The translations under genes were made by a program, and so were the position numbers. Below are positions 52,936 to 61,699 of a DNA stretch of 64,000 bases, piece after piece. The notes under the pieces are model-generated. The model searched no databases, was not told the DNA's origin, and saw only the letters and a list, made by a program, of their open reading frames with translations. Positions within the stretch are counted from its first letter, which is position 1; every line of letters starts with the position of its first letter. The stretch is taken from positions 770,001 through 834,000 of the forward strand of contig NZ_CP022680.1 in assembly GCF_003595525.1 (NCBI RefSeq), written 5' to 3'. The stretch is from Streptococcus respiraculi. GTDB taxonomy: Bacteria; Bacillota; Bacilli; Lactobacillales; Streptococcaceae.

Positions 52936-53081
52936 AGAACCTGTATTCACAGCTCAGCAACTCTATTCAGAGCTTATTTTCGCTACTCATCGTTGCTTTT
53001 TCGAAATACAGTCAGTATTCCTTCAAAAAAAGCCTTGATGATCGTAAAATAAGAATTACTTGGCTTATGAATACAGGTTCT
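52936..53081. repeat. AGAACCTGTATTCA-end repeat (family C), full 146-bp copy
   Basis: Perfect 14-bp inverted ends at 52936-52949 and 53068-53081. The interior has no coding frame but holds more inverted sequence (TTATTTTCGCTACTCATCG and TGATGATCGTAAAATAA). The last base forms part of the eetB stop codon. Confidence 0.88.
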
Positions 53082-53620
53082 CATTTCCATTCTGCTAAAA
53101 TGATTTGGTTGTAATAGCGGAGTGGGCCGACCTTTTTAAGCAGATAATTGGCTGTGAGTCCGACTAAAAATCCAGATAAAATGCCACTAAAAGACAGAAC
53201 AGGCAGATAGTTTAGGACTAGTAACGATTGTCCAATCCAAGAAAAGACGAGGAGCTGACCGATATTGTGGAGCATACCGCCTAAAATAGAAATGCCAATG
53301 GCGCTGACCCGTTTAGGTCCTAATTGTTTAGCAGAAAGCATGCCGATGTAGCTAAGGGTAACTCCAGCAAAGCCATACAAAAAGGTCGAAAAGGTACCAC
53401 CTAAAAAGGTCGAAATGAGGAGTCTGATACTGACTACCTTGACGCTATCCTTTGTAGGGAGAGTGAAAATCGCAATTAAGCTAATCAAATTTCCAAGTCC
53501 TAATTTTGCCCCAGGAGCAAATGAAAAAGGTGTTGGAATTAAGCGTTCGACTAGCGAAATGACAACGGCTTGGGCAGCCAGCATGGTGATAAACAGTAAT
53601 TTTTGATTTTTTGAATTCAT
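53081..53620 (-). CDS. eetB: EetB-like Gx transporter family membrane protein
   Basis: A 179-residue membrane protein of the family called heptaprenyl diphosphate synthase component I or Gx transporter, with about six hydrophobic segments. The motif PGAKLGLGNLISLIAIF (about 37-53) resembles the ECF-type substrate-binding fold. In Listeria and other Firmicutes a homologue (EetB) belongs to the extracellular electron transfer locus and acts with EetA. It diverges from ndh2. Its stop codon TGA uses the first base of a family C repeat, so the native C-terminus may have differed slightly. The substrate is unproven. Confidence 0.8.
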   Translation of the reverse strand: MNSKNQKLLFITMLAAQAVVISLVERLIPTPFSFAPGAKLGLGNLISLIAIFTLPTKDSVKVVSIRLLISTFLGGTFSTFLYGFAGVTLSYIGMLSAKQLGPKRVSAIGISILGGMLHNIGQLLVFSWIGQSLLVLNYLPVLSFSGILSGFLVGLTANYLLKKVGPLRYYNQIILAEWK

Positions 53621-53698
53621 AAGTGTGTCTCTAGCTAGGGTAGATGCAAAATGGAGGGCAGTTCTATTATTAACTATTTCTCCAATCTTTCTACTTTC

Positions 53699-53704
53699 AT
53701 TATA
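53699..53704 (-). promoter_or_regulatory. -10 element for eetB
   Basis: ATTATA, read TATAAT on the minus strand, about 80 bases before the eetB ATG. No good -35 at normal spacing was found. Confidence 0.45.
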
Positions 53705-53768
53705 CTATCTGTTTTTTAGAAGATATGCAAGTCTTTTTCATAAAATCGTTTGCAAAAAGCAAACTATC

Positions 53769-53800
53769 CAATTGTACAATTGTTTTAAAAGGTGTATAAT
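53769..53800 (+). promoter_or_regulatory. ndh2 promoter with overlapping palindrome
   Basis: -35 TTGTAC (53772-53777), 17-base spacer, -10 TATAAT (53795-53800). The 14-bp perfect palindrome CAATTGTACAATTG (53769-53782) covers the -35 box and is a candidate operator of an unidentified regulator. Confidence 0.7.
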
Positions 53801-53842
53801 AGGCTTTGTTAAAAAACAGACAAACTAAACGGAGGTTATGTT

Positions 53843-55732
53843 TTGACTAAAAATATTGTAATAGTAGGTGCTGGTTATGCAGGGATTTCTGCGGCGCGCT
53901 TACTCGGGAAAAAATTCAAGAAAAACGACGATGTGACCGTTACCTTGATTGATAAAAACTCATTCCATACCTATATGACAGAGTTGCATGAAGTGGCGGC
54001 TGGTCGTGTGGAAAAAGATGCAATCAAATATGACTTGAAACGCATTTTCAACAAGTATCCAAAAGTAAACTTGGTAACCGATAAGGTGCTTGAAATTGAT
54101 TATGACAAAAAAGAAGTGATTGCAGAGCACCAAACACTTCCATTTGACTATCTCTTGCTTGCAATGGGTGGAGAGGCGAACGATTTTGGTATCAAGGGTG
54201 TAAAAGAAAATGGCTTTACTCTTTGGTCAATCGAAGCAGCAGAACGCTTGCATGACCACATCGTTGACTCTTGCTACCGTGCTATGCGCGAACATGACGA
54301 AGAAAAACGCCGTGCTCTTTTAACGTTCACTGTTATCGGTGCAGGTTTCACTGGTATTGAGATGATTGGTGAGCTGATTGATTGGGTTCCAATCTTGGCG
54401 CATGAATTCAAACTTGATCCAGCAGAATTCTCTCTCAAAGTGATTGAAGCTATGCCAAACATCTTGCAAATGGTCACTGAGAAAGAACAGGTTAAAACAC
54501 GTAAATACCTTGAGAAAAAAGGTGTTGAATTGGTACTTGGTGATGGAGTTGCAGCTGTTGAAGTTGACAAATTGGTCCTTTCATCAGGTCGCGAAATCCC
54601 AACTTACACGTCTATCTGGACAGCGGGTGTACAAGCTAATAGCGACGCGAGCGAATTTGGAATTGAAAAAGCACGTGCAGGTCGCTTAGTTGCTAACGAA
54701 TACATGGAAGCAAAAGGCAAGGAAAATGTCTATGTAGCAGGTGATTTGGTGTATTACGAAGAGCCAGGAAATGACGGCAAACCAACACCGCAAATCGTTC
54801 AAGCTGCTGAGCAAACTGGACACACTGCTGCGCAAAACATTATTGCTGCGATTACAGGTGGTGAAAAGCATAGCTACAAAGGGAAATACGATGGCTTCAT
54901 GGTCTCAATCGGTTCTCACTATGGCGTTGCCTTCCTTATGGGCAAATACCATTTATCAGGCTTTATGGCAATGTTCATGAAGCACATGGTCAACTTGCTT
55001 TACTTCTTTACAATCCGTAGCTTCTTCTATATGGGGTCTTATGTCCGCCATGAATTCTTTGATATTAAGAACAAACGCAATATCTTTGGTGGTCATACAT
55101 CAGGGAAAGGGAATCTTCTTTGGTCAGCGCCACTTCGTGTCTTCTACGGTTCTGTATGGCTCTATGAAGGGGTTAAGAAAGCTTTTGGTCTCTTTGGTAC
55201 GACTTCATGGTTGGGAGATCAAGTTGTCTTCCCATTCCCATGGTTAGCAGACCCTGTATCGGGTGCTTCAGCTGCTGAAGCAACTTCTGGTGCTTCTCAA
55301 GCAGTCGCTGAAACAGCCCACGCTATTTTTGGACTCAGTTATGCGTATGGTGAGCAACCAATGACTGTTTTGGATGGCATGCCAGATTGGTTTGCGTCAA
55401 TCATGCAATTCATGATGCCAAACCAAGAAGTTGCCCTCTTTATGCAAAAATTCATGACTATTGCTGAAATCGGAATCGGTCTTGCCTTGATTGCAGGTGC
55501 CTTCGTATGGATTGTCAGCGCAGCAACAGTTGCCTTGGTGGTGATGTTCAGTTTGTCAGGTATGTTCTACTGGGTGAACATCTGGTTTATTCCAGTTGCG
55601 ATTTCATTGATGAATGGTGCTGGTCGTGCCTTTGGTCTTGACTACTGGATTATGCCATGGTTGGGTCGCTTCCTCGATAAGAAGATTTATGGCAAGCCCA
55701 AGCATATTTATAGATTAAAAGATAAACGATAA
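53843..55732 (+). CDS. ndh2: Membrane-anchored type II NADH dehydrogenase (EET type)
   Basis: A 629-residue NADH:quinone oxidoreductase. Start TTG at 53843, 7 bases after GGAGG. The FAD motif GAGYAG is at 9-14 and the NADH motif GAGFTG at 166-171; VYVAGDLVYYEE (about 294-305) is the second FAD contact. Ordinary Ndh-2 proteins end near 400 residues; here about 230 more contain several hydrophobic, DoxX-like helices that embed it in the membrane. The same long form feeds electrons to demethylmenaquinone in the Listeria extracellular electron transfer system. It opens the locus ndh2-dmkB-pplA-fmnB-dmkA. Confidence 0.93.
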   Translation: MTKNIVIVGAGYAGISAARLLGKKFKKNDDVTVTLIDKNSFHTYMTELHEVAAGRVEKDAIKYDLKRIFNKYPKVNLVTDKVLEIDYDKKEVIAEHQTLPFDYLLLAMGGEANDFGIKGVKENGFTLWSIEAAERLHDHIVDSCYRAMREHDEEKRRALLTFTVIGAGFTGIEMIGELIDWVPILAHEFKLDPAEFSLKVIEAMPNILQMVTEKEQVKTRKYLEKKGVELVLGDGVAAVEVDKLVLSSGREIPTYTSIWTAGVQANSDASEFGIEKARAGRLVANEYMEAKGKENVYVAGDLVYYEEPGNDGKPTPQIVQAAEQTGHTAAQNIIAAITGGEKHSYKGKYDGFMVSIGSHYGVAFLMGKYHLSGFMAMFMKHMVNLLYFFTIRSFFYMGSYVRHEFFDIKNKRNIFGGHTSGKGNLLWSAPLRVFYGSVWLYEGVKKAFGLFGTTSWLGDQVVFPFPWLADPVSGASAAEATSGASQAVAETAHAIFGLSYAYGEQPMTVLDGMPDWFASIMQFMMPNQEVALFMQKFMTIAEIGIGLALIAGAFVWIVSAATVALVVMFSLSGMFYWVNIWFIPVAISLMNGAGRAFGLDYWIMPWLGRFLDKKIYGKPKHIYRLKDKR

Positions 55733-55782
55733 TGAATAGTGGTTCTTGATTCCATTATCATTGAAATAGAGTAAAAATGATA

Positions 55783-55830
55783 AGGACTATTCAAAAAACG
55801 GGAGAAAAGTTTGCTGAATAGTTCTTTTTC
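55783..55830 (+). terminator. Hairpin between ndh2 and dmkB
   Basis: AGGACTATTCA (55783-55793) with TGAATAGTTCT (55815-55825) and a T run: a terminator or attenuator that may lower expression of downstream genes. Confidence 0.7.
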
Positions 55831-55850
55831 TATGATGAAGTAGGAGAATT

Positions 55851-56843
55851 GTGGTACATCGAATTTGGGAGAATCATCCAGAAATACAAAGGGGCTTAGA
55901 ACAAGTCAAGCGCATCATGTTGACAGAGATGAAAATGATTCATCCAGCTGTGCGCGAAAAAATTGTTGAATACATGGAAGCGCCGGGGAAATACCTGCGT
56001 TCTGGTTTGTGCCTCTTATTTGCTGAGGCTGTAGACGGAGAAATCAAACCAGCAAAGCTCTATTTTGCCGCTTATGTGGAGGTCTTGCACCTTGCTACCC
56101 TCATCCATGATGATGTCATTGATGAGGCAGAGTTGCGCCGTGGGATTGTGGCTGCTCACCGTCAATTTTCTAATCGGATTGCGATTTATGCAGGGGACTA
56201 TCTCATGGCTTATGCAGGGCGACTATTTGCTAAGGGCATTCGCTTGCTAGATCTTGAGACAACAGAAACGGACTCTTTCAATGAGAGATTGATTGAGGGA
56301 ATTTTAGCAGGGGAACTCGCTCAGTTGATGAACCAGTTTGATGCGAGCATGACCATGAAACGCTACCTCAAGCAAATTCAGGGGAAAACAGCTTTCTTAT
56401 TTGGTCTCTCCTGTCAACTAGGGACTTTACAGAGCGGAACAGCTATCACGCACACTTCACCTGCCTTTCGGGCTGGTCGTTCCTTTGGCATGGCCTTTCA
56501 GTTGAGAGATGATTTAATTGATTACCAATTGACTGCTCAAGAATCGGGAAAGCCAGCTCGCCAAGATATTCAAAATGGCATCTATACAGCTCCACTTCTT
56601 CTCGCTATGGAAGAGGATAAAAGTATTCGGCAGGATTTGCTGGCAGTTATTGAGACTAAGGAAGAAAGACTGATTGAGCAACTGGTGGAGAAAATCAATC
56701 GAACAAAGGCAAAGGAGCGGACAAACTCCTTGATGCAGGCCTATCTTGACAAGATGGAGCAGCAGATATCGTTGTTAAAAACAGGCGGTCGTTCCGTAGA
56801 TTGTGACTGGCTGGCTGAGAAAATGCTAGACCCCTATAGTTAA
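55851..56843 (+). CDS. dmkB: Polyprenyl diphosphate synthase for demethylmenaquinone side chain
   Basis: A 330-residue all-helical trans-prenyltransferase. Start GTG at 55851 after TAGGAG. First aspartate-rich motif LIHDDVIDEAELRRG (about 83-97) and second RDDLIDY (about 220-226) bind the diphosphates. It elongates isoprenoid units to the chain (hepta- or octaprenyl) that DmkA attaches to dihydroxynaphthoate. A hairpin terminator (56862-56895) follows, with a new promoter for pplA. Confidence 0.9.
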   Translation: MVHRIWENHPEIQRGLEQVKRIMLTEMKMIHPAVREKIVEYMEAPGKYLRSGLCLLFAEAVDGEIKPAKLYFAAYVEVLHLATLIHDDVIDEAELRRGIVAAHRQFSNRIAIYAGDYLMAYAGRLFAKGIRLLDLETTETDSFNERLIEGILAGELAQLMNQFDASMTMKRYLKQIQGKTAFLFGLSCQLGTLQSGTAITHTSPAFRAGRSFGMAFQLRDDLIDYQLTAQESGKPARQDIQNGIYTAPLLLAMEEDKSIRQDLLAVIETKEERLIEQLVEKINRTKAKERTNSLMQAYLDKMEQQISLLKTGGRSVDCDWLAEKMLDPYS

Positions 56844-56861
56844 ATAGACAAAAAATTTTTT

Positions 56862-56896
56862 ATGTCCAAATTTACGTTAAACATTGGACATTTTTA
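56862..56896 (+). terminator. Terminator after dmkB
   Basis: ATGTCCAA (56862-56869) with TTGGACAT (56884-56891), then TTTT. The right arm overlaps a possible -35 (TGGACA, 56885-56890) of a pplA promoter whose -10 is TATGAT (56908-56913). Confidence 0.65.
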
Positions 56897-56975
56897 CCGA
56901 AAAAGTATATGATGATAGAGTAAGAAAACGCTTCAGTTTTAAGAGGCTGAGGTAGGGAAAAGGAGTTTTATTATA

Positions 56976-57491
56976 ATGAAAACAACAAAAGTTGTGTTGA
57001 AAAGTGTTGCAGTCTTAGCAGCTGCGTTTGCCTTGGTAGCATGTGGTGCTAAAGAAGAAAAGAAAGACACAATGATGTCTTCATCTGAAACAACAATGTC
57101 TTCATCATCAGAAGCAAAAATGATGGGAGAATTGAAAGACGGTATGTACTCAGCAGAATCTGCTGCTGATGAGCGTGGCTACAAGATTGTTCACACTATC
57201 ACTGTGAAAGACGGAAAAATCACTGAGTCTAAGTTTGACTACGAAGACAAAGACGGTAAAATGAAGTCTGAAAACGAAGAATACAACAAGATGATGAGCG
57301 AAAAAGCAGGTGTTTCTGCTAAAGAAGCAATTGACAAATTGAACGCTGGCCTTGTTGAAAAACAAGACGTAGAAGCAGTTGAAGTTGTTTCTGGTGCTAC
57401 TCATACTTCAGAAGACTTCAAGAAGAGTACAACAGCTCTTCTTGCTGCAGCTGAAAAAGGGGACACTGCAAAAGTAATGCTTGACAAATAA
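56976..57491 (+). CDS. pplA: FMN-binding surface lipoprotein (PplA-like)
   Basis: A 171-residue lipoprotein. The signal peptide ends at ALVAC (Cys23). A Ser/Thr/Met-rich linker (about 30-50) follows, then one FMN_bind domain (about 51-150) with the flavinylation motif VVSGATHTS (about 137-145), where the SGAT threonine (T142) would carry covalent FMN. PplA of Listeria passes electrons from membrane quinone to outside acceptors and has two such domains; this one has one. fmnB, encoding the attaching enzyme, is the next gene. A strong ribosome site (AAAAGGAG) fits high expression. Confidence 0.9.
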   Translation: MKTTKVVLKSVAVLAAAFALVACGAKEEKKDTMMSSSETTMSSSSEAKMMGELKDGMYSAESAADERGYKIVHTITVKDGKITESKFDYEDKDGKMKSENEEYNKMMSEKAGVSAKEAIDKLNAGLVEKQDVEAVEVVSGATHTSEDFKKSTTALLAAAEKGDTAKVMLDK

Positions 57492-57507
57492 TCTAGCATA
57501 AAATAAA

Positions 57508-57557
57508 AAAGGGAGTGAGGACAGTCAGTCAACTGATTGGGGGCTCACTCCCTTTCT
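57508..57557 (+). terminator. Terminator after pplA
   Basis: AAAGGGAGTGAG (57508-57519) with CTCACTCCCTTT (57544-57555), long loop. pplA can thus be made as a separate, abundant short mRNA. The remaining gap to 57803 shows a TACAAT at 57582-57587 and nothing else recognised. Confidence 0.85.
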
Positions 57558-57803
57558 AGTGGATTTTTTGCTAGAAGATGATACAATGGTATAGAAATTA
57601 TACCTTATCCTACTCACTGAGCATTAACAGGAATGTTTTCTTAGGCAGTGAAGATGTACGTAAAATTTTTTGTTTCTCAGATTTTCACTACAGCGAAAGG
57701 ATTACGTCATGTGTGGCTTTTCCAAAACGAGCAGTGGAGTCTGAATGCGAAGGATAAGCTATTGTTGTCGAGTATAAAAGGACTAGAAAAGGAGAATGAG
57801 AAT

Positions 57804-58859
57804 ATGAAATGGAAGTGGCTAGCCATTCCGTTGGTGATTTGCGGCTTTCTATTAGGAGCTTGTCAGTCGAAGCAAACAGTCAAGGAGAGTTTGCTTGTAG
57901 TGGACAAACCCTTGACACGGACGGAGAGCTTGCTCCATACGGTTGTGCAGATTAGTATTTACCATAAAAACCAGGAAGAAGCAATGGACGAGGGGATTTC
58001 CTACGTCAAAGAAATGGAGCGACTCCTATCGACAAATCTGGAAGGTTCGGATATTTACCGTATCAATCAGGCGGCAGGAAAAGAAGCGGTCAAGGTTGAT
58101 CCGCGTACCTTTGAATTGATTGAGAGGGCTTTAGAAATGGGGGAGAAGAGTCATGGCCGTTTTGATGTCTCAATTGGAGCAGTCAACAATCTCTGGAAAA
58201 TCGGTTCAGAAGATGCTAGAAAGCCAAGCGATGAAGAAATCAAGGTGGCTCTCCCTCATATCAACTACAAAAATGTACAGTTGGATAAGAAAAACCAGAC
58301 GGTTGCGGTAAAAGAAGGCATGATTTTAGAGTTGGGTGCCATTTCAAAAGGTTATATCGCTGACGGTTTGAAGCACTTGTTTGCAGAAAAAGGTATTACA
58401 ACGGCTATTATCAATCTGGGTGGAAATGTGGTCGTGATGGGGACTTCCCCTGCCCACAAGGAAGGTTGGAAGGTAGGGGTTCAAGATCCTGATGAAGTGC
58501 GGGGAACCGTGGTCGGCTCAGTCTATGTAACGGACGGCTCAGTCGTGACTTCAGGAATCTACGAGCGCTATCTGGAAGTGGATGGTGTCATCTATCACCA
58601 CATCCTTGATCCAACAACGGGCTATCCAGTTGAGAACAATATCTCAGGTGTGACCGTCTTTACCAAGACTTCTACCCAAGGGGACGCCCTTTCCACAACG
58701 CTTTTTCTCTTGGGAATTGATAAAGGCATGGAATTTATCGACCAACTGGAGGATGTAGAAGCGGTCTTTGTGGATAAGGAACGCGGTGTTCATCTAAGTA
58801 AAGGACTCAAGGAACGGTTTGAATTGAGTAATGAGGAGTATCATCTTGTCAATGACTAA
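57804..58859 (+). CDS. fmnB: FAD:protein FMN transferase lipoprotein (ApbE)
   Basis: A 351-residue ApbE enzyme that attaches FMN from FAD to threonine of flavoproteins outside the membrane. The ATG at 57804 follows AGGAG and gives a lipoprotein signal ending LLGAC (Cys20); 52 upstream codons are not coding. Family motifs: MERLLSTNLEGSDIYRIN, FDVSIGAVNNLW, LELGAISKGYIADGL (about 180-194), NLGGNVVVMG and VTSGIYERY, with the metal site near QGDALSTTLFLLG. Its natural target is the PplA-like lipoprotein just upstream. It overlaps dmkA. Confidence 0.95.
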   Translation: MKWKWLAIPLVICGFLLGACQSKQTVKESLLVVDKPLTRTESLLHTVVQISIYHKNQEEAMDEGISYVKEMERLLSTNLEGSDIYRINQAAGKEAVKVDPRTFELIERALEMGEKSHGRFDVSIGAVNNLWKIGSEDARKPSDEEIKVALPHINYKNVQLDKKNQTVAVKEGMILELGAISKGYIADGLKHLFAEKGITTAIINLGGNVVVMGTSPAHKEGWKVGVQDPDEVRGTVVGSVYVTDGSVVTSGIYERYLEVDGVIYHHILDPTTGYPVENNISGVTVFTKTSTQGDALSTTLFLLGIDKGMEFIDQLEDVEAVFVDKERGVHLSKGLKERFELSNEEYHLVND

Positions 58860-59808
58860 TGAAACAGGGAGAATTACCCTACCCATTTTTTTAGAATTTA
58901 TTGAATTACGGACAAAGGTTGCAAGTGTCTTTCCTATGTTGCTTGGAATTGTCTGGGCCATTTATCGCTATGGTACTTTTAATGGTCTAAATACAGCCTT
59001 CTTCGTCCTTGCGGTCTTGACCTTTGACATGTGTACGACGGCCATCAATAATACCATGGACTATGTCAAGGCTAAGGATCAGGTTTACCGTGAGAAGCGC
59101 AATGTCATCGGGCGTAATCAGCTTGATTTTAGGCAGATGGTACAGATTGTCTTTCTGCTCTTGTTCTTTTCGATTGCGGTCTCGCTTGTCTTAGTCTGGC
59201 GGACGGATTTGATTTTATTACCGCTAGGAGCCTTGTGTTTCTTAATTGGTATCTGTTATACCTTTGGACCGATTCCTCTCTCGCGCATGCCGCTTGGGGA
59301 GATTTTTTCAGGGGTCACCATGGGGCTTGGCATCTTCTTCTTGGGAGTCTTTGTTCAAGCGCCGAATCTGCTTTTAACCAGTCGATTTGTTGGTGAATGG
59401 TTTCAATTGCAGCTGGCTTGGGGCAAATTCATCGAGATTGGTCTTATGAGCCTGCCTCTGGTCTGCTTGATTGCTAATATCATGTTAGCCAATAATCTGT
59501 GTGACTTGGATGAGGATATTCGCAATCATCGCCACACACTGGTCTTTCATATCGGACGGGAAAAGGGCCTCTTACTCTATACTTGTTTGGCAGCCTTACC
59601 GTGGCTTTTGTGGCTAGCTTATCCCCTTCTTGGCTTCTTGCCCTTCTGGGCTTGGATAGGTGGTGGTGTTGCTTTTCTCTCTTACAAGAGTCTAGGACGT
59701 TTTTTAGAAAAGCAAATCAAGCGTGAAACCTTTGTTGAAGCAGTCAAAAGTTTTGTTTTGTTTGCACTGATGTATCTGGTAGTTTTAATTTTAGCAACAG
59801 TACTATAA
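58852..59808 (+). CDS. dmkA: Dihydroxynaphthoate prenyltransferase (UbiA family)
   Basis: A 318-residue membrane prenyltransferase that joins the polyprenyl chain to 1,4-dihydroxy-2-naphthoate to give demethylmenaquinone. Aspartate-rich motifs are NNTMDYVKAKD (about 60-70) and NNLCDLDEDIRNHRHT (about 208-223); about eight membrane helices. The ATG at 58852 overlaps fmnB by 8 bases; starts at 58831 or a TTG at 58846 remain possible. No ubiE or men genes are near, so the product would stay demethylated here and its naphthoate precursor must come from elsewhere. Confidence 0.92.
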   Translation: MTNETGRITLPIFLEFIELRTKVASVFPMLLGIVWAIYRYGTFNGLNTAFFVLAVLTFDMCTTAINNTMDYVKAKDQVYREKRNVIGRNQLDFRQMVQIVFLLLFFSIAVSLVLVWRTDLILLPLGALCFLIGICYTFGPIPLSRMPLGEIFSGVTMGLGIFFLGVFVQAPNLLLTSRFVGEWFQLQLAWGKFIEIGLMSLPLVCLIANIMLANNLCDLDEDIRNHRHTLVFHIGREKGLLLYTCLAALPWLLWLAYPLLGFLPFWAWIGGGVAFLSYKSLGRFLEKQIKRETFVEAVKSFVLFALMYLVVLILATVL

Positions 59809-60155
59809 ATTGAATAAAGATTAGGACATCGTTAAGCTGTTTTGATGAACGTCAGTTCTATCTGCAGCTCCTTTCCTTATCCTATTTAGCACTTTGGGAT
59901 ACTTTCTTAAATCGTGCGGTCGCAAGCAACCTTGTATTTCCGACCTTTAACAGTCCACTGGACTGTTAAAGCAATCTTGAGCCTAAGTACCCAAAAATGC
60001 CGTTCCTAGCAACTATTTTGCTGTTGCTGGTCATTCCACTATTTCGAATGTATCGCTTTTGGCTCACTTCGTTCAATTCATTTTCTTAAAGAGTAGATTT
60101 TTATAAGATAAAATAGTTATTTTTGATTTTCATTGAGTATCACTCCACTATATAA
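59806..60155 (-). repeat. Composite A/B repeat, inverted copy
   Basis: 59806-59887 is the inverted family A unit (TTGAATAAAGATTAGGACAT ... CTCCTTTCCTTATCCTATTT). About 250 bases of B-like sequence follow, then GAGTATCACTCCACTATA at 60135-60152, the outer end. It holds the hairpin CTTTAACAGTCC/GGACTGTTAAAG (59945-59971). It has the same organisation as 33987-34296. Fills the gap between dmkA and the terminator. Confidence 0.7.
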
Positions 60156-60162
60156 AGTATTC

Positions 60163-60196
60163 AAAAGGTCCTGAACGTTGCTCCAGGACCTTTTTT
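60163..60196. terminator. Bidirectional terminator between dmkA and eetA
   Basis: AAAAGGTCCTG (60163-60173) with CAGGACCTTTT (60184-60194) and T/A flanks on both sides. Confidence 0.9.
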
Positions 60197-60198
60197 AG

Positions 60199-60624
60199 TT
60201 AAATCGGTAAAATTAATTCTTCCTCGTCATCGGATTCTTGGTCTTCAGGGACACGAATTTCAATGATGAGATTGTGTGGGAGGCAGACAGCAATTTCTCC
60301 TGGGCGACTGATCCAGCCTGTATTAACAGCTATTTGATCAGGGCTATTGTCTTCTTTGTCGCGAATCCGTTCTCCATCTACTTCAATGATATTGTACTGA
60401 CCTGGATTGGGATGATAGGTCACTTCCTTGTGGGGCGTGCCTTTGGAGAGTTTAAATTCATCGACGACCTCTCCGTTAATACGGACAGAAGCAATCAGAT
60501 AGGGCTCTTCTGGCTGTCCTTGACTGCCCGCATAGGTCACTATTGCTGGTACAAAAGACAACAGTAGGGTAATCCCAATCAGGATAAAATCAAAAGGTTT
60601 AAATTGACGTAAAATCTGTTTCAT
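60199..60624 (-). CDS. eetA: EetA-like protein (NusG domain II)
   Basis: A 141-residue membrane-anchored protein. The ATG at 60624 follows GAGGA. One transmembrane helix (about 10-30) precedes an extracellular NusG domain II-type fold with DQIAVNTGWISRPGEIAVCL (about 95-114), a segment well known in EetA homologues, where the first position group often holds a cysteine (here Ala). The tail is acidic (ESDDEEE). EetA works with EetB in extracellular electron transfer, exact role unsettled. Convergent to dmkA, with its own promoter. Confidence 0.85.
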   Translation of the reverse strand: MKQILRQFKPFDFILIGITLLLSFVPAIVTYAGSQGQPEEPYLIASVRINGEVVDEFKLSKGTPHKEVTYHPNPGQYNIIEVDGERIRDKEDNSPDQIAVNTGWISRPGEIAVCLPHNLIIEIRVPEDQESDDEEELILPI

Positions 60625-60654
60625 TCGTATCCTCATTCTCTCATGAATAAGAAT

Positions 60655-60683
60655 ATTGTAAAGGAATTTGACCACTTTGTAAA
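60655..60683 (-). promoter_or_regulatory. Promoter of eetA
   Basis: On the minus strand: TTTACA (60683-60678), 17-base spacer, TACAAT (60660-60655). Confidence 0.75.
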
Positions 60684-60693
60684 CTGTTTGGGG

Positions 60694-61209
60694 TTATTCG
60701 GATTGTCCCCTTCGCGCTTTAAAAGAAATATAGAGTTGGCAAGCAAGACCAAATAGTGTAGCTCTTATGAAGAAGGAAAGAGCTGCTTTTACGGTAAAGA
60801 GAGAGTCAAAGAGAGGTACGTTTTGTGAGAAGGCATCATATAACCAAAGTATCCCTCCAAAGAGAATCCCAGCTTTTAGTCCCGCAAATTTCATTTGAGC
60901 TTGTTCTTTTTGGTTGAGTTCTTCTTTATCAATATCAGCCAAATGCAGGCTGTGGACTTTGACCAAGGCAAAGGTTGACGTTGTTAATAGGAGTAAGGTC
61001 AGTATGATAGGATAGGCAAAAGCAATCACTTCAGGATATTTGTCAGCTAGAAGTAGGGCAAGTGCATTTCCAATCAGCAGTACCCAAAAGAGCAGGATGA
61101 AACAGATACTGCCGATACGGTCTACTTCTCGACGCTTGTACTCATCGAGTGGACCTGTGATACCATAAAAGCGTTTCATCATTTTGTCAGTAAAGGTTTC
61201 TTTTTTCAT
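60694..61209 (-). CDS. DUF3278 domain-containing membrane protein
   Basis: A 171-residue protein with four hydrophobic segments (about 32-52, 60-82, 110-128, 142-160). The N-terminal KRFYGITGPLDEYKRREVDR is the DUF3278 hallmark. Genes of this type in streptococci regularly follow a small XRE regulator, as here, and may be a membrane partner of that regulator. Function unknown. It is 18 bases upstream of the eetA promoter region on the same strand. Confidence 0.83.
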   Translation of the reverse strand: MKKETFTDKMMKRFYGITGPLDEYKRREVDRIGSICFILLFWVLLIGNALALLLADKYPEVIAFAYPIILTLLLLTTSTFALVKVHSLHLADIDKEELNQKEQAQMKFAGLKAGILFGGILWLYDAFSQNVPLFDSLFTVKAALSFFIRATLFGLACQLYISFKARRGQSE

Positions 61210-61416
61210 GTTTGTTCTCCTTGTGTTTGTTTTATTTTTTGTTTGCTTACCTTATATACAACATTTGAAGTAACAATAAAAATGTGATGAGAATTTGTGC
61301 AACCAATTTGCAATGTAAGATGGTTGGTCATTGACAGTTGTAGGAGCTGAGTTGGATAACGATAAAAGTGATGAGTACGAATGTGGTTTGTAATCGTTTT
61401 TGTCTCATCTTTTCCG

Positions 61417-61509
61417 TTCTATAGTGAATGGAATAAAGGTTAGGTCATCGTTAAGTTGCTTTGCTGAGCGCCAGCTCTATCTGTAGCTCCTATTCCTTTC
61501 TCGAGCCAC
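61417..61509 (-). repeat. Family A MITE-like repeat, inverted copy (supplies the XRE stop)
   Basis: TATAGTGAATGGAATAAAGG at the left and CTCGAGCCACTATAG at the right (about 61417-61511): the inverse of the 29631-29735 unit. The XRE regulator frame enters it and stops at 61490. Confidence 0.85.
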
Positions 61510-61699
61510 TATAGTCTTCCCAGAAGAGGGTGTTGAGGTCTGTATTTAAGGCACGGGCGAGATTGATACAGAGATCAAGAGAGGGGTTGTATTTGTCGTT
61601 TTCAATCATGTTAATGGTTTGTCTGGAAACGCCAATTTGCTTGGCTAGCTCAAGCTGCGACTTGCCGACATCGAGTCGGTATTCTTTAACGCGATTCAT
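61490..61699 (-). CDS. XRE-family small regulator with repeat-derived tail
   Basis: A 69-residue helix-turn-helix protein, HTH at about 12-58 (KSQLELAKQIGVSRQTINMI). The core ends LNTLFWED as in related YozG-type regulators; the final YSGSRKE and stop are read from the inserted family A repeat. It precedes the DUF3278 gene, 280 bases away, with the repeat in between. The start follows AGGAGG. It probably represses its own operon. Confidence 0.88.
   Translation of the reverse strand: MNRVKEYRLDVGKSQLELAKQIGVSRQTINMIENDKYNPSLDLCINLARALNTDLNTLFWEDYSGSRKE

Follow-up and report, generated by a model that had tools for sequence, protein, structure and literature searches.

A seven-gene locus at positions 53081-60675 of a 64-kb window of a 2.06 Mb Streptococcus genome (the window is the whole stretch of DNA analyzed, C1:770001-834000 of genome G000) likely represents the streptococcal form of flavin-based extracellular electron transfer (EET) and probably serves mainly to respire organic acceptors anaerobically on the cell surface. 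The original prediction had recognized seven EET genes in this interval; all seven were found at those coordinates, with their families confirmed by profile search and, for all but DmkA, also by comparison with the Listeria locus. Nearly all of the genes for electron export are present in a streptococcus regarded as purely fermentative. Iron or quinones had been proposed as its natural acceptors, which now appears the weaker guess: fumarate- and urocanate-type surface reductases track the locus, and fumarate and urocanate at the cell surface are the most likely acceptors. We infer the flow of electrons, the substrates and an exit through flavin mononucleotide (FMN) on an outer loop of Ndh2 from sequence.

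Surface reductases that accompany the locus

The sample comprised 247 Streptococcus genomes, evenly drawn from a larger set with one per species, and EetB was present in 42 of them. FrdA (E <= 1e-100) was matched in 36 of the 42 EetB-positive genomes and in 0 of the 205 EetB-negative genomes; UrdA (at least 79%), among the matches listed, was present in 7 of 42 and 0 of 205, respectively. Naive Fisher P values were 2e-37 for FrdA and 3e-6 for UrdA.

FrdA scored higher with flavocytochrome c fumarate reductase (428 bits) than with urocanate reductase (314 bits). It lacks a Pfam FMN_bind domain and carries an ApbE motif only, located in the linker. The alignment set contained 31 FrdA sequences from 30 loci (39 FrdA genes were matched in all, eight of them outside the set), and both the linker motif SGA[ST] and a His at the hinge position were present in 31 of 31. 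By its N-terminus, ApbE motif and His hinge, rather than by comparison with the Listeria FrdA sequence, the protein is classed as a fumarate-type lipoprotein of the Listeria kind.

A search of the genome for FMN_bind detected four proteins, including PplA and UrdA. The UrdA protein scored 605 bits with the Shewanella urocanate reductase vs. 307 bits with fumarate reductase. Glu177, Phe243, Phe245, Tyr373, Asp388, Arg390, Phe391, Arg411 and Arg560 of the Shewanella enzyme, whose roles are described in a crystal structure paper (PMC7921117), were all kept in this UrdA and in five relatives when the numbering was mapped by hand on the Shewanella alignment, and a sixth relative read by eye contained the same motifs. 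The Tyr373 hinge and Asp388 place the protein in the urocanate type, Y type.

In 24 of 30 loci, a Rex-like site with no more than two mismatches to an assumed consensus was detected upstream of frdA. Rex matches upstream of ndh2 and urdA were weak (four mismatches), and the eetB-ndh2 intergenic region was conserved among close relatives only. A single cre or Rex site shared by the whole regulon was rejected, as the Rex-like site was convincing only upstream of frdA.

Several observations weigh against respiration of organic acceptors as the main role. The co-occurrence counts and Fisher values ignore shared ancestry, and six of the seven UrdA proteins share 94-100% identity with the one in the window's genome. 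Genome G229 keeps frdA though ndh2 and dmkB are lost. Six EetB-positive genomes gave no FrdA match (G202, G124, G018, G091, G174, and G213, the last 74% complete); in G202 (locus L127) frdA is broken into two pieces with the middle missing, and G124 contains a shorter relative. The FrdA of G004 (L080), which lies outside the alignment set, has SSAT instead of SGA[ST]. HutH was not found in the window's genome, and the cell must therefore take up its urocanate from outside; moreover, the distribution of HutH does not follow that of UrdA (2 of 7 UrdA-positive genomes vs. 67 of 240 others); an endogenous urocanate source was rejected for lack of an own HutH and because HutH/UrdA co-occurrence was not above chance. 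The genome also has CydA, so the quinone could serve oxygen as well, and the chain would idle without dihydroxynaphthoate (DHNA). FMN_bind reductases of EetB-negative streptococci were considered as a counter-example and rejected: eight related reductases read in five such genomes (G026, G042, G043, G129, and G207; one further protein in G042 lies outside the set) all start without a signal peptide, and the link of surface reductases to EET is therefore not contradicted by them.

Alternatively, the locus may mainly reduce iron or quinone shuttles via PplA, with FrdA and UrdA fed by other means. Such a role finds support in the short FMN_bind open reading frame (ORF) present in all 42 locus-bearing genomes (only 111 residues at a contig edge in G213), compared with a FrdA match in 36, but FrdA and UrdA, both lipoproteins that carry ApbE motifs, were found only where the locus is present (UrdA among the matches listed), and flavinylation of Listeria FrdA needs FmnB (PMC9973259). 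We consider a mainly iron- or shuttle-reducing locus unlikely.

In the favored reading, respiration of organic acceptors at the surface, Ndh2 would oxidize NADH and transfer the electrons to demethylmenaquinone (DMK), which DmkB and DmkA would synthesize from DHNA taken up from outside. EetB, together with general EcfT and EcfA subunits, would export flavin adenine dinucleotide (FAD), and the lipoprotein ApbE would attach FMN to the surface proteins PplA, FrdA and UrdA. PplA would serve small and soluble acceptors and iron; FrdA would reduce fumarate to succinate and UrdA would reduce urocanate to imidazole propionate, both enzymes being encoded outside the locus. Through the locus, roughly one sixth of the Streptococcus species sampled (42/247) would then be linked to surface respiration, in which most would use fumarate and a few urocanate. 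Fumarate and urocanate reductases that are flavinylated and sit at the cell surface have been described elsewhere (Light 2019, via PMC9973259 and PMC8238504); a genus-wide streptococcal link between the locus and FrdA/UrdA was not found in the portions of the open-licence literature available.

The other two FMN_bind proteins of the genome (805 and 968 residues) have no signal peptide, and thus look cytosolic; they contain FMN_red and Oxidored_FMN domains, respectively. A second ApbE of the genome (310 residues), also without a signal peptide, could flavinylate them. The first (L006:4061-6478, C1:231060-233477) is an FMN_red + FMN_bind + FAD_binding_2 fusion in which Met occupies the position of the UrdA hinge. 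The Met-hinge ("M") class is counted by a review among imidazole propionate producers, and the fusion is possibly a second urocanate reductase. The other (L007:4058-6964, C1:1135057-1137963), an Oxidored_FMN + FMN_bind + FAD_binding_2 fusion, may be an NADH-dependent enoate reductase; by reading, the neighboring genes resemble those for a type I dehydroquinate dehydratase and enzymes of the shikimate pathway. Imidazole propionate has been linked to type 2 diabetes, and S. mutans is listed as a producer (PMC11872695). Streptococci already named as producers may use a different, cytosolic route, and the two routes need telling apart.

A candidate flavinylation site in Ndh2

Alignment of EET-type Ndh2 proteins revealed an Ala/Ser-rich stretch with SGAS in the C-terminal extension. 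The ApbE motif is D-x-x-[S/T]-G-A-[S/T], whose seven residues suffice for labeling, also (less fully) in a surface loop; in motif mutants, Asp to Ala had a minor effect, Gly to Ala left about half of the labeling, and Thr was preferred over Ser (PMC12052999). DPVSGAS of the window Ndh2 matches this minimal motif exactly. Among the 57 larger ORFs of the window (17,877 residues), [ST]GA[ST] occurs five times, and together with the acidic residue only in Ndh2 (twice) and PplA.

The motif [DE]xxSGAS was present in 40 of 40 streptococcal Ndh2 loops (the window and L129-L167; G213 was excluded because its sequence ends before the loop), with Asp at position -3 in 26 and Glu in 14. SGAS is encoded by 21 different nucleotide spellings in these 40 proteins, and the flanks vary. 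The wider comparison used 38 distinct Bacilli strings from 55 linkers delimited among 62 aligned rows, after seven rows were dropped (six from clostridia or Paenibacillus, plus half of the split gene of G121). The acidic -3 residue was present in 34 of the 38 distinct linkers, the others being from Listeria, Abiotrophia and two Enterococcus; Listeria's own Ndh2 reads TSGAS and two Enterococcus Ndh2s read TTGAS.

Charges are +1/-8 in the loop, +7/-2 in the preceding stretch and +9/-2 at the C-terminus, a pattern that, with the positive-inside rule, predicts that the loop lies outside, on the same side as the lipoprotein ApbE. Hydropathy of the extension indicated one clear helix only, and weak DoxX matches (22.8 bits at the Ndh2 C-terminus, below the Pfam cut-off of 23.6) give no firm fold, so the topology is a prediction.

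We tentatively propose, with somewhat less than an even chance of being right, that EET-type Ndh2 is a covalent flavoprotein on the outside, carrying FMN that ApbE/FmnB would attach to the final Ser of [D/E]xxSGAS, within the loop that follows the first membrane segment. The FAD of Ndh2 would be reduced by NADH, and electrons would pass to quinone and then from quinol (or directly) to the loop-tethered FMN, which would reduce PplA, FrdA, UrdA, free flavin or iron. One polypeptide would span inside NADH, FAD, quinone and outside tethered FMN. The step from quinol to the outside is stated as unknown in Gram-positive EET in a study of E. faecalis in which PplA was not required (PMC9864754), and the conserved, exact ApbE tag in Ndh2 provides a concrete candidate for it. 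Riboflavin-dependent iron reduction by L. plantarum needs Ndh2 and EetA/B and does not need PplA, DmkA or DmkB (PMC9888254). A tethered FMN on Ndh2 would explain both the requirement for Ndh2 and EetA/B only in L. plantarum and the dispensability of PplA in E. faecalis. If true, Ndh2 flavinylation would apply across Bacilli, including Listeria.

Other observations speak against a tethered FMN on Ndh2. Iron reduction by L. plantarum was not restored by EetA or EetB alone (PMC9888254), Listeria without eetA had normal EET (PMC9973259), and the Ndh2 linker is of low complexity. SGAS could instead be a by-product of a flexible Ala/Ser/Gly linker that is never flavinylated, an explanation that we judge to be evenly poised between right and wrong. 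The linker is indeed Ala/Ser-rich, exact [ST]GA[ST] is missing in the six clostridial or Paenibacillus relatives, and riboflavin-dependent anode reduction by L. plantarum, which also counts against the tethered FMN, did need PplA (PMC9888254). FMN is documented on PplA and FrdA in Listeria, and flavinylated Ndh2 was not found reported in the available portions of the open-licence literature on EET and ApbE, which does not establish that it is unreported. A mere by-product is harder to reconcile with [ST]GA[ST] in 38 of 38 distinct Bacilli linkers when 1.75 were expected after shuffling each, with an acidic -3 residue in all 40 streptococcal sequences, and with [DE]xx[ST]xA[ST] being kept in the six distant relatives (in L026 by eye).

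Genes of the locus, their distribution and the quinone supply

The genes of the locus, the two surface reductases and the candidate flavinylation sites are listed in Table 1.

Table 1. Coordinates and family assignments of the EET genes, candidate flavinylation sites and surface reductases; coordinates are those of the window unless preceded by C1.
Feature	Coordinates	Strand	Description
eetB	53081..53620	-	ECF-S-like FAD exporter subunit; PF07456 156.3 bits
ndh2	53843..55732	+	type II NADH dehydrogenase with C-terminal membrane extension, 629 residues; Pyr_redox_2 143.5 bits
Ndh2 candidate site 1, DPVSGAS (residues 470-476)	55250..55270	+	predicted outside loop
Ndh2 candidate site 2, EATSGAS (residues 479-485)	55277..55297	+	less conserved, often SSAS in relatives
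dmkB	55851..56843	+	polyprenyl diphosphate synthase; PF00348 polyprenyl_synt 189.4 bits
pplA	56976..57491	+	single-domain FMN_bind lipoprotein; FMN_bind 29.3 bits (cut-off 22)
PplA candidate flavinylation site, EVVSGAT	57381..57401	+	motif class common to Ndh2, FrdA and UrdA
apbE/fmnB	57648..58859	+	lipoprotein FAD:protein FMN transferase; PF02424 ApbE 291.4 bits
dmkA	58831..59808	+	DHNA polyprenyltransferase; UbiA 75.4 bits; NCBIfam NF004752 299.8 bits (cut-off 289)
eetA	60199..60675	-	NusG domain II membrane protein; PF07009 NusG_II 86.9 bits
UrdA	C1:1403376-1405205		610-residue ORF, lipobox-like MIGC, FMN_bind + flavocytochrome-c domain
FrdA	C1:57607-59118		504 residues, lipobox LIAC, linker EEAVSGASEKVYTDP before FAD domain

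EetA and EetB matched their own profiles and not unrelated families, and the EetB family is described as an FAD-binding exporter (PMC9973259). The membrane extension that had been noted in the 629-residue Ndh2 held up, as the protein aligned across residues 3-626 with 52% identity to the Listeria EET Ndh2. Assignment of the FMN_bind lipoprotein as PplA was borne out in part: the FMN_bind domain, a lipobox (LVAC, by reading) and the SGAT site are present, but there is a single domain, and the score with the NCBIfam PplA model NF041941 was 144 bits, under the 325-bit cut-off, with only model positions 2-175 of 302 aligned. The protein is classed from its sequence as PplA-like in kind and not as the full two-domain Listeria form. 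Alignments of ApbE with close relatives begin at residue 42-66 (in one at 23), and by reading, the true start is probably the ATG at 57804, which gives the lipobox LGAC. A perfect inverted repeat (ATGTCCAA...TTGGACAT) followed by T residues lies between dmkB and pplA (56862-56891) and is terminator-like, so pplA may have its own promoter. Between eetA and rsmH (60694-61699) are genes for a DUF3278 membrane protein and a small helix-turn-helix regulator, a pair that adjoins the EET locus in L016 and G229 too.

Placement of the locus in a Streptococcus agrees with the nearest named relatives of Ndh2, which are from Streptococcus sp. LYSM12 (98%), S. cuniculi (97%), S. acidominimus (97%), S. azizii (96%) and S. 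henryi (78%). An EET locus is not unusual in this genus, being present in 42 of 247 genomes, and the pathway is known to be complete in 11 of 38 genera of lactic acid bacteria (PMC8837199). EET-type Ndh2 was detected in 41 of the 247 genomes (E <= 1e-60), and the single difference from the EetB set was G229. The gene order eetB(-) ndh2 dmkB pplA apbE dmkA eetA(-) was complete in 30 of 40 loci; of the others, four had no detected eetA, two were cut at contig ends, one was that of G229, and three contained only eetB-ndh2-dmkB within the stretch, with pplA elsewhere. The order differs from the classical locus, as had been stated, but it is not peculiar to the window, since it is the usual streptococcal one. 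Decay was observed in single species, with ndh2 and dmkB lost (L125, G229) or ndh2 split into two frames (L160, G121). A second short FMN_bind ORF (161-184 residues) was present besides PplA in G116, G121 and G229.

The sequence-based prediction had called for a genome search for fmnA and for a DHNA source; neither a separate fmnA nor MenD turned up. A dedicated FmnA, the T component (ECF-T) of an energy-coupling factor (ECF) transporter, was not found among the five CbiQ-family genes of the genome and was rejected as a separate gene: the best match to Listeria FmnA was the general EcfT beside ecfA1/ecfA2 (53%, 227 bits; next best 72 bits). A tblastn search with these CbiQ queries found no ECF-T in the loci of nine relatives (L020-L028; up to 10 kb on each side of ndh2, in some less) and a single one in L029, at a distance of over 6 kb from ndh2. 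MenD, the only men gene searched for, was above cut-off in 0 of the 42 locus-bearing genomes; the best score in the window's genome, 54 bits vs. a cut-off of 244, is as expected of other thiamine diphosphate enzymes. DHNA is therefore probably taken from outside the cell, as is also reported for S. agalactiae (PMC6030563) and for EET by L. plantarum (PMC9888254).

A second quinone module was detected at C1:1378866-1388433 (L126:2867-12434), with a polyprenyl synthase, cydC/D-like and cydB-like genes, cydA, a type II NADH dehydrogenase (NDH-2) of about 433 residues without membrane extension and a menA-like gene; the names come from reading the sequences, except for CydA and the NDH-2 domain. 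NDH-2, menA-like and polyprenyl synthase genes are each present twice in the genome. By its gene content, the second module is of an aerobic type resembling that of S. agalactiae. Listeria also has two chains (PMC9094743).

The presence of cydA, and the use of ndh, menA and cydAB with imported quinone by S. agalactiae (PMC6030563), could suggest that the locus itself serves aerobic respiration, with Ndh2 and DMK feeding cytochrome bd. However, cydA here belongs to the separate cluster with its own NDH-2, menA-like gene and polyprenyl synthase, and apbE, pplA and eetB, which are part of the locus, are not required for aerobic respiration. CydA was matched in 11 of the 42 locus-bearing genomes (three of these in pieces) and not in the other 31, with other quinol oxidases not searched for, which suggests that most of these species have the locus without cytochrome bd. 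Aerobic respiration as the main purpose was rejected on the separate cluster and the 31 genomes without a match, and we hold it to be very improbable.

Comparison with known systems

NqrB and NqrC are membrane redox proteins flavinylated by ApbE, with FMN on a Thr of a short motif (PMC12052999); Ndh2, in contrast, is an NADH dehydrogenase of the two-dinucleotide fold whose flavinylation is only predicted. The S. agalactiae chain (cydAB, ndh, menA) has imported DHNA in common with the system described here (PMC6030563), and this genome has a similar cluster in addition to its EET locus; that chain is aerobic, and S. agalactiae is reported to reduce little or no iron (PMC8837199). Enterococcus raffinosus and E. 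gilvus (L170, L171) carry their EET locus, which includes two neighboring menA genes, on a plasmid of roughly 1 Mb. Shewanella UrdA (PDB 6t85) has the nine active-site residues in common with the protein of this genome, which differs in being a Gram-positive lipoprotein, presumably fed by Ndh2 and DMK.

The Listeria monocytogenes flavin-based EET (FLEET) locus contains the same families, namely Ndh2 with the extension, DmkB, PplA, FmnB, EetA and EetB. Identities were 60% for EetB, 46% for FmnB, 37% for EetA and 33% for DmkB; DmkA is absent from the gene table of that record. The gene order and strands differ, neither a separate fmnA nor MenD was found here, and PplA has one FMN domain where Listeria has two, to which it is 48% and 38% identical. 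Tandem FMN domains of PplA were found in Listeria, an Aerococcaceae genome, Abiotrophia and Tetragenococcus. In Listeria, a flavinylated FrdA is likewise encoded outside the EET cluster (PMC9973259, PMC8238504), and the streptococcal genome differs in encoding a UrdA lipoprotein besides FrdA.

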